Below are positions 2,698 through 35,655 of a DNA stretch of 64,000 nucleotides, piece by piece. The DNA lies in NCBI GenBank assembly GCA_902599315.1, contig CACKEY010000004.1, forward strand, positions 62,001-126,000. Reading direction: 5' to 3'. Source of the DNA: an uncultured SAR86 cluster bacterium (GTDB lineage Bacteria; Pseudomonadota; Gammaproteobacteria; Magnimaribacterales; D2472). Made by a program: the position numbers and the translations under genes. The stretch's first letter is position 1. Every line of letters starts with the position of its first letter. The notes under the pieces are model-generated. The model had not been told where the DNA came from. It ran no database searches and saw only the letters and a list, made by a program, of their open reading frames with translations.

Positions 2698-3988
2698 TCG
2701 CTTTTACAACATCGTACCAATTTCTTAAATCTTCTAAATATTCATCAAGCATTTGCTCTCCTTGATAACGAATATATTCTGATTCAACTTCTTTTGAAAC
2801 ATCACCAAATGGAGGAGCGCTTGAAATTATCTTTTTGATTAGTATCAGAATATGAGCTTGTTCATCAAACTCTATCAATTCACTGACTTCACCCTCCTCA
2901 AGGTCTAAAGCAATCTGAGTTAGCGAAGGTCCTATGTATTCTCTGATTTTCATGGCAGGCAATATAGTATTTGGCAGTGTGATCACTTCATTTTCAGCAA
3001 GAGATTTTGCCTTTGCAAAATCTCCTGCAATTAAAAAATCTCTTGCCTTGATTGCAAGCTCTTTATTGTTGGATTTAAAACTTAACTTTATAAGATGAAG
3101 CTTTGGGCTTGGAGTAAAAAGATCTTCGTTAAGTGAATAAAAATTTTCTAAATCGTTCTGAGAAATTGTTAATTCATTTGCATCTGAGATAATCGAACTG
3201 ATCATCTTTTGTATGATAATGCTTCGAATCTCAGAATCATTCTCAATCATTCCAAGATCAATACCCCTCTGAATAAGAAGTTCCTCATCTATCATTCTTT
3301 CAAGGATATTTTCAGGATCAGAATCTATCAAACCTGTCTTTCTTGATTGCGCTATTGATTCTAAATACGACTGATATTTCTCTTTTGAAATTGCTCTCTC
3401 ATCAATTTTAGCGACCCAATTTAATTGAGCGATATCTACCTCTTTAATAAAACTTGACCCAATTATCAAAACAGAAATAATTCCACCAAGAAGAATCAAA
3501 GGGTGAATATCAAACTTCCATTGAAAAAAATGTTTAGTTTTTTCTATTGGAGTTAAAGTCATCTTTATGTGATCAATATCATCCTCTAAATAAACTTCAC
3601 CAATCGGTTCAAACCCAAATTCTTTATAAAAATTTAATAATCTATATTGAGCTGAGAGGCTAATATCATATTTAGGATACTTTAAAGCACAAAAATCAAT
3701 GGCCATCTTAGTAAGAACTTTGCCCAAACCTTCTCTTCTGACACTTTCTTTGGTTAAAACTCTGCCAATTTCAGGACCATCATATCTTTGACCAGGTTTA
3801 CCTACTCTCAAATAGCCGACTAGTTCAGAATCTTGATATGCAAGTAGATGATCGCAGTCTTGATCTTTAAAATCGGCATCAATAAATGCACAGTCTTGCT
3901 CAACAACAAAAACTTCCTGACGAAGATTCAATAGTCCATATAGCTCCTGTTTCGTGAGAGCAGAGTATGATTTCCATTTAAATTCCAT
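2687..3988 (-). CDS. ElaA-like GNAT acetyltransferase fused through a TM segment to a PpiC/SurA-like peptidylprolyl isomerase domain
   Basis: N-terminal LRQEVFVVEQDCAF...YLRVGKPGQRYDGPEIGRVLTKESVRREGLGKVL (ElaA/GNAT); TM HPLILLGGIISVLIIGSSFI; C-terminal SurA-N-like helices and degenerate parvulin domain. Confidence 0.75.
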   Translation of the reverse strand: MEFKWKSYSALTKQELYGLLNLRQEVFVVEQDCAFIDADFKDQDCDHLLAYQDSELVGYLRVGKPGQRYDGPEIGRVLTKESVRREGLGKVLTKMAIDFCALKYPKYDISLSAQYRLLNFYKEFGFEPIGEVYLEDDIDHIKMTLTPIEKTKHFFQWKFDIHPLILLGGIISVLIIGSSFIKEVDIAQLNWVAKIDERAISKEKYQSYLESIAQSRKTGLIDSDPENILERMIDEELLIQRGIDLGMIENDSEIRSIIIQKMISSIISDANELTISQNDLENFYSLNEDLFTPSPKLHLIKLSFKSNNKELAIKARDFLIAGDFAKAKSLAENEVITLPNTILPAMKIREYIGPSLTQIALDLEEGEVSELIEFDEQAHILILIKKIISSAPPFGDVSKEVESEYIRYQGEQMLDEYLEDLRNWYDVVKANEL

Positions 3989-17635: not shown

Positions 17636-20051
17636 TTAAAATACTGTTCCAATAGTGAACTGGAATTCTTCTGTTCTATCATAAATCCCATCATTAAATG
17701 GTTGCGAAAAGCTGAAACTCATTGGCCCAAAGCCAGTAATCCATGTAACACCCACTCCAATGGAATATCGCAGTTCATCGACTGACGGCTCAAAACAATT
17801 AATCTGATAATCCTGACAATCAGTAGAGAAAACGTTTCCAAAATCCAAAAAGAACGCTGATCTCATCGATCTTTGGTCCTCTATCATTGGCAGTTTAAAA
17901 ATTAATTGAAGGCTGCCCTCTATTAAGAGATTACCGCCAATTGGGTCTCTTCTTTGCTGATAAAGGTATGGGTTTTGAGCTATTGAATCAGGGGTTCCAT
18001 CAAAATCTGAATCAACAATTAATGGACACTCTTCAGTAACCGGATCAAAGTCATAGCATGGTGATGGCGTCACTCTTGGACCAAGTGTATTAGATTCAAA
18101 GCCTCTTATGGATCTTGGACCACCAGAATAAAAATTTTCAAAAAAACGGAGTTTTCTCAGTATCTCCATAAGCTCCTATGTATCCAAGCTCTCCATCAAA
18201 TCCAAAAACAAGATTAGAAAAGCCAAGTGGTCGGTAGAACTTTTGCCGTAAATTGGTTTTGTAATAGGTTAAGTCACTTCCAGGAACTGTAACTTGAAGC
18301 ATAACATCAGTTGATGATCCGTAAGTGGGAAACATACCTCTATTTAGAGTTACTCTTGACCATACCGCTTGTGCCTTTAAAACATCAAAAACATTACCCT
18401 CAGAGGATAAAAAATCTGAAATTTCACGAGATGGTAAAGAACCAGAATCAATATCCGTATTATCAAAATTAACGTTTAAACCAATTCTTTGCGTATCACT
18501 TATTGGATATCCAAATTGCACTCCCAGCCCTTGAGAATTTGTTAAGTAATTTGCAATATTGTATTCGCCGTAATCTGTCTCTCTGAAATAAATGCTGTAG
18601 CCTCTGCTGACTCCATCCATAGTAAAATATGGATCAAAAAATGAAACATTATATGATTCTTGGTAAATACTTTTATTTATCCCAAAAATAAACCTATTCC
18701 CAGAACCAAGATAATTATTATCAGAAAGATTCAGTCCGATATTCATTCCAAAATCACTATATCCTATTGAACCTCCGACTGAGGATGTGCTCTCTTCTTC
18801 AACTGTAAATTCAATATCTACCTGATCTTCAGTCCCGGGTACTGGAATTGTTTCAACATTTACTTCTTTAAAAAATCCAAGCCTCTCAAGACGAACCTTA
18901 GACCCTTCAATTAAATTATCTGAAGCCCATGCCCCCTCAAACTGACGCATTTCTCTTCTTAAAACTTCATCATTAGTTAAGTAGTTTCCCGCAAAAAGTA
19001 TTTTTCTTGCATATGTCCTATTCCCTGGTTGGACCAAAAATAATAATGATACGGTTTTATTTTCTTGATCAATTTCAGGATTTCCAGAAACTTCTGCGAA
19101 GGTATAGCCTTCATTCCCTAAAAGATTTACAAAATATTCCTCTATTTGGGTAATTTGAGCTTGGGAATAAATTTTATTCTTTTGGCTTTCTACAATTGGA
19201 TTATAGATAGCTTCATCCAAAGGCATCTCACCAATTACGCTCACATCATCTATTTTATATTGGTCTCCCTCTGAGATGCTAAGAGTAATAAAGACATCTT
19301 CTTTATTTTTTGAAACTGAAACCTGAGAAGATTCAATGGAAAATTTTAAATAGCCTCTATCTAAATAAAACGACTCTAAGTTTTCTATGTCTCCTTCGAG
19401 CTTTTCTTTTGAGTACTTATCTTTATTTGATAAAAATGCGTACCATTTACCCTCTTGAAGCTCAAATCCGGTCATTAGCTCTTCGTCAGTAAATAAGTTG
19501 TTTCCAATTATATTAACTTTTTTAATTTTTGCGCTTTTACCCTCATCAATAATTATTTTTAAAGCTAATGTATTTCTTGGTCTATCTTCAGTTTCGATAT
19601 TTACACTTGCGCCATATCTACCCTGGGATGAGTATTGACGAACTAATTCGCTTTTCATTCCATTTAAAGTGGAGCGCTTATAAACTTGTCCTTCAGCAAT
19701 CCCAGCACCCTCAAGACCTTTCAACAAGTCCTCCGATTTAAGCGCTTTATTGCCTTCTAATTCTATAGAGGATATTGATGGTCTTTCTAGCAAGCTTATA
19801 ATTAATGCATTTCCATCTTTAGCTATTTGAATATCATTAAACTGTGCAGTAGCAAATAAAGCCTTTGAGATTTCTCTTACTTTTGCCTGGCTCATTTTAT
19901 CTCCAACACTTACAGGGATTGCTGTAAAAATGCTACCAATGGAAACGCGTTGTAAGCCTATTATTCTTATATCTGTAATTAAAAATTCATCAAATGCTGA
20001 AGTAGATAGTGATATAAAAGCGAGGGTATAGAGCGCTATTTTTTTCATCAA
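17636..20051 (-). CDS. bamA: outer membrane assembly factor BamA, interrupted by a frameshift near 18138-18146
   Basis: ORF 18138..20051 (signal, POTRA, barrel start) ends GDTEKTPFF*; ORF 17636..18169 resumes in a different frame as FFENFYSGGPRSIRGFESNTLGP...QFTIGTVF; removing one T from the T7 run joins them. Confidence 0.9.
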
Positions 20052-35305: not shown

Positions 35306-35655
35306 GGGGGCGAATTGGGTTCGACGTTTTTATTGGATTCCAAAGCGCATGCCAAGATTGTGGTAACTCTTGTAAAACATACTACAAAAAAATTAGTTGC
35401 AGAAAACGACAACTACGCTTTAGCTGCTTAATTAGCTAACCAATGCAAAAATTGTCTATGGTTTGAAGCATTGGCAAATTACATAGACTAGTTTTATTGT
35501 GGAGTCTTAACGCAGTAAAATCAAAACTAATCTAGACTAGCCTTCGATATCCTGCTCTTCGGGTCATCAAGGTAAAACAAAAAGAATGAGCTAAGCATGT
35601 AGAAGTTAGGCTGAAGGACTAACGGACGCGGGTTCAATTCCCGCCGCCTCCACCA
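35306..35655 (+). ncRNA. ssrA: transfer-messenger RNA
   Basis: 5' GGGGGCGAATTGGGTTCGAC pairs with 3' CGCCTCCACCA; tag ORF GCAGAAAACGACAACTACGCTTTAGCTGCTTAA = AENDNYALAA*; GGACGCGGGTTCAATTCCCGCC T arm. Confidence 0.97.

Follow-up and report, generated by a model that had tools for sequence, protein, structure and literature searches.

Does a bacterium of the SAR86 cluster really carry a bamA gene interrupted by a single extra base, or does the interruption belong to its draft sequence only? BamA is essential in Gram-negative bacteria, and a real lesion would mean that a free-living bacterium relies on recoding to make a protein that its envelope cannot do without. The gene lies in a window of 64 kb (the whole stretch of DNA analysed here; positions 62001-126000 of contig C4; GC content 35.6 %) from draft genome G000, which comprises 1,444,216 bases in 17 contigs and is 89.79 % complete. 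The split is very probably a draft error, i.e. a surplus base that arose in sequencing or assembly.

The split bamA gene

On the minus strand, positions 18169-18138 read ...GAT ACT GAG AAA ACT CCG TTT TTT TGA AAA TTT, with exactly seven Ts in the run 18140-18146. The initial annotation had placed an extra base at this run, and had taken the 637-aa ORF and the downstream ORF for one gene (17636-20051). Both claims held: the 741 positions of the BamA model TIGR03303 were covered over their full length by the two pieces (Table 1). After one T was dropped, the joined gene counted 804 codons including the stop, which equals the length of bamA in relatives G005 and G003.

Table 1. Coordinates, in the window, of the bamA pieces and of a further feature.
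Feature	Position	Strand	Remarks
T7 run with one extra base (A7 on the plus strand)	18140-18146	-	Relatives cross the site in one frame
bamA 5' part (N-terminal region and first part of the barrel)	18138-20051	-	637 codons, ends at UGA; TIGR03303 positions 1-612 (636 bits); 98 % identical to the intact G005 gene
bamA 3' part, shifted frame	17636-18169	-	TIGR03303 positions 609-741; 97 % identical to G005 and G003
tmRNA gene	35306-35655	+	Tag AENDNYALAA

ORF starts were listed mechanically: the TTG at 20051 is followed by a first ATG that begins MKK, and the ATG listed for the downstream ORF lay upstream of the lesion, in a frame that is not that of bamA. The genuine bamA codons of the 3' part number 168 with the stop; they occupy about 18139 to 17636, and the protein ends in ...FTIGTVF. 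Comparison of the joined pieces with the relatives uncovered no frame damage in G000 bamA besides the T7 site. This run and an A7 at 20039-20045 were jointly the longest of the gene. The adjoining ORFs, of 177 codons on one side and 447 on the other, had the sizes expected for skp/ompH and rseP (judged by size only). A spare BamA or TamA was sought in the G000 assembly and not found; as bamA was the only Omp85 gene encountered there, BamA had no visible substitute.

Private changes were counted codon by codon, wherever G005 and G003 agreed and G000 differed. The 636 codons before the site displayed 46 synonymous and five nonsynonymous changes of this kind, and the 168 codons after it 11 and one, respectively; the 3' part is thus not decaying and shows no relaxation. 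An error, a very recent mutation and a rescue working at full efficiency would all leave the 3' part undecayed, so this result does not tell them apart.

The site in related genomes

Same-genus genomes covering the site displayed P-F-F-E-N-F-Y in one frame, and their bamA was open over 803 to 819 codons, except in G010 and G022. In the latter the contig ended within the gene. In G010 (FRAM18_bin297, L117:10923-13334) the bamA frame breaks about 200 codons after the start, a position other than the one affected in G000.

The nearest relative, G005 (94 % DNA identity), reads CCATTTTTCGAA at the site, i.e. CCA TTT TTC GAA, and G003 (92 % DNA identity) reads CCATTTTTTGAA, i.e. CCA TTT TTT GAA. Since both lack the extra base, the out-of-frame T7 is private to the G000 assembly. 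A T7 at this position is no signal in itself, because two further relatives (L018 and L019) also carry one, but in frame, their proline codon being CCT. None of the relatives displayed the UUU-UGA arrangement. Six Ts after CCG, as opposed to CCA, were seen in no other genome of the species, a point that counts against a draft error.

The initial annotation had proposed this comparison and had named an intact frame in the relatives as the outcome that would speak against a real lesion; the relatives were indeed intact, which supports its ranking of a homopolymer sequencing error in first place. Strictly speaking, what the intact relatives prove is that the lesion is private, and not that it is an error.

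Frame breaks elsewhere in the drafts

About 650 kb of G000 were searched with proteins of the relatives, which covered about 320 kb at more than 60 % identity; within the window, 59,618 bases were covered at more than 45 % identity. No frame break other than that of bamA was found in the window, and this single frame error in 64 kb speaks against a draft error to the extent that the assembly is thereby not generally poor. Elsewhere, the survey of G000 detected a second unambiguous lesion of one base that is private to this assembly, in the gene of an M16-type peptidase (L111:3581-3600; G000:C6 ~3581-3600, minus strand). Here a private change of GG to G, not at a slippery site, splits a gene that was intact in 18 relatives (917-953 codons), which makes another draft error likely.

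The same survey on sister assembly G009 yielded two candidate lesions in 325 kb. One of them was a single T missing from a T run (G009:C1, L163:14130-14170, minus strand), a loss private to G009, in a gene that by eye reads as atpB, apparently for subunit a of ATP synthase (...FLAELTLHPFGKWMMPVN); it is likely a draft error as well. Given the peptidase lesion of G000 and the atpB lesion of G009, it is commonplace in these drafts for a gene needed in working order to show a single private frame break. The label of the related contigs was SAR86 cluster bacterium, and many had isolate names beginning with AG- or AH-, a style in use for single-cell genomes. A published benchmark put the single-cell workflow from which many of the SAR86 relatives come, and G000 possibly not, at 3.0 indels per 100 kb (PMC11247762).

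The bamA split resembles the one-base indels of draft single-cell and metagenome assemblies in being isolated, private and located in a run, in a gene that must work and whose frame is otherwise intact; no difference was seen. One surplus T would have been miscalled, or brought in by amplification, within a homopolymer of what is otherwise a normal, undamaged bamA. The living cell would then possess a single bamA of 803 codons, read normally and with nothing to recode. We infer that this specific base is an error and not a real recent mutation. Accordingly, a lone frame break in an essential gene of a draft SAR86 genome is no ground for claiming recoding or gene loss unless relatives or reads are consulted.

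Real mutation or recoding as improbable alternatives

No positive support was found for a real mutation, nor for its rescue by slippage or +1 frameshifting, all of which require a real insertion first. An improbable reading is that the cell or strain sequenced had really acquired the insertion, very recently and with no programmed rescue, and was either doomed or living on traces of full-length BamA. T runs are hotspots of replication slippage, the bamA T7 is among the two longest runs of its gene, and the undecayed 3' part would suit a very young mutation equally well. Against this, such a lineage should not persist since BamA is essential and only one Omp85 gene was found, so that its capture by chance would be needed.

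It is even less probable that a free-living SAR86 strain truly carries the insertion and obtains its essential BamA only via slippage or +1 frameshifting on U7-GA, where no classical stimulator was present. The initial annotation had kept both mechanisms as alternatives; they are not supported, as the site was not conserved, an SD-like stimulator was lacking and comparable lesions occurred elsewhere in the drafts.

Taken by itself, rescue by transcriptional slippage on the T7, with RNA polymerase making some mRNAs one U shorter and thereby restoring the frame, deserves very little credence. Such slippage has been reported for frameshifted genes of Blochmannia and Buchnera, some of them essential, with about 30 % full-length transcripts (PMC3017870). 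These poly(A/T) genes and SAR86 bamA have in common an AT-rich genome, an indel in a run and a maintained coding constraint. The endosymbiont tracts are, however, much longer (9-12), and part of the frameshifts recur across populations or species (PMC3017870), whereas the bamA tract is a T7 only, private to G000 among the same-genus relatives, in a free-living planktonic organism. E. coli RNA polymerase also slips on poly(T), with rescue by deletion at about 10 % on T8 and T7 at the detection threshold, and rescue by insertion at 5 % on T7 and 10 % on T8 (PMC6260861); the bamA tract thus lies at that threshold. Because one U must be lost here, slippage alone would probably supply a small share of BamA. 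Homopolymer deletions are rare in E. coli transcriptomes (PMC5574713). The window itself also speaks against slippage of unusual strength: its intact genes with support from relatives contain about 75 A/T runs of seven to nine (79 before allowing for the bamA run and for a few runs tallied on both strands).

Rescue by +1 ribosomal frameshifting at UUU-UGA, by analogy with CUU-UGA of prfB, is scarcely credible. As in prfB, a slippery codon precedes UGA and a +1 shift would restore the protein; with UUU followed by U, tRNA-Phe could re-pair perfectly in the +1 frame, and slow decoding of the UGA would favour the shift. The prfB gene of G000 itself has the classical site (CGGGGGCAT CTT TGA C) and keeps the textbook signal CGGGGGCATCTTTGAC. 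In contrast, the bamA site has UUU instead of CUU, is not conserved, its UUU-UGA occurring in no relative, and is not preceded by an SD-like G-rich element at prfB spacing, an absence already pointed out in the initial annotation. A hairpin stimulator was rejected, as the predicted local RNA fold did not surpass those of shuffled sequences (z 0.38 and 0.94), and so was a GGAG/CTCC pairing ahead of the T run, which the nearest relatives do not share.

Other candidate frame breaks

Three further candidates in G000 were dropped. L126 was non-coding, upstream of a conserved start, and L119 was an ambiguous case, a small insertion in a 230-codon frame. At L122 (G000:C1, L122:10936-12551), the 539-codon ORF of many relatives, with a C-terminal alpha/beta hydrolase, was present as two overlapping ORFs (ATGGTGA). 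This split was common to a clade composed of G000, G005, G007, G011 and G018, and is therefore a real gene fission or fusion. Other relatives displayed listed in-frame stops at this locus, many of them TGA, beside open frames of 535 to 540 codons.
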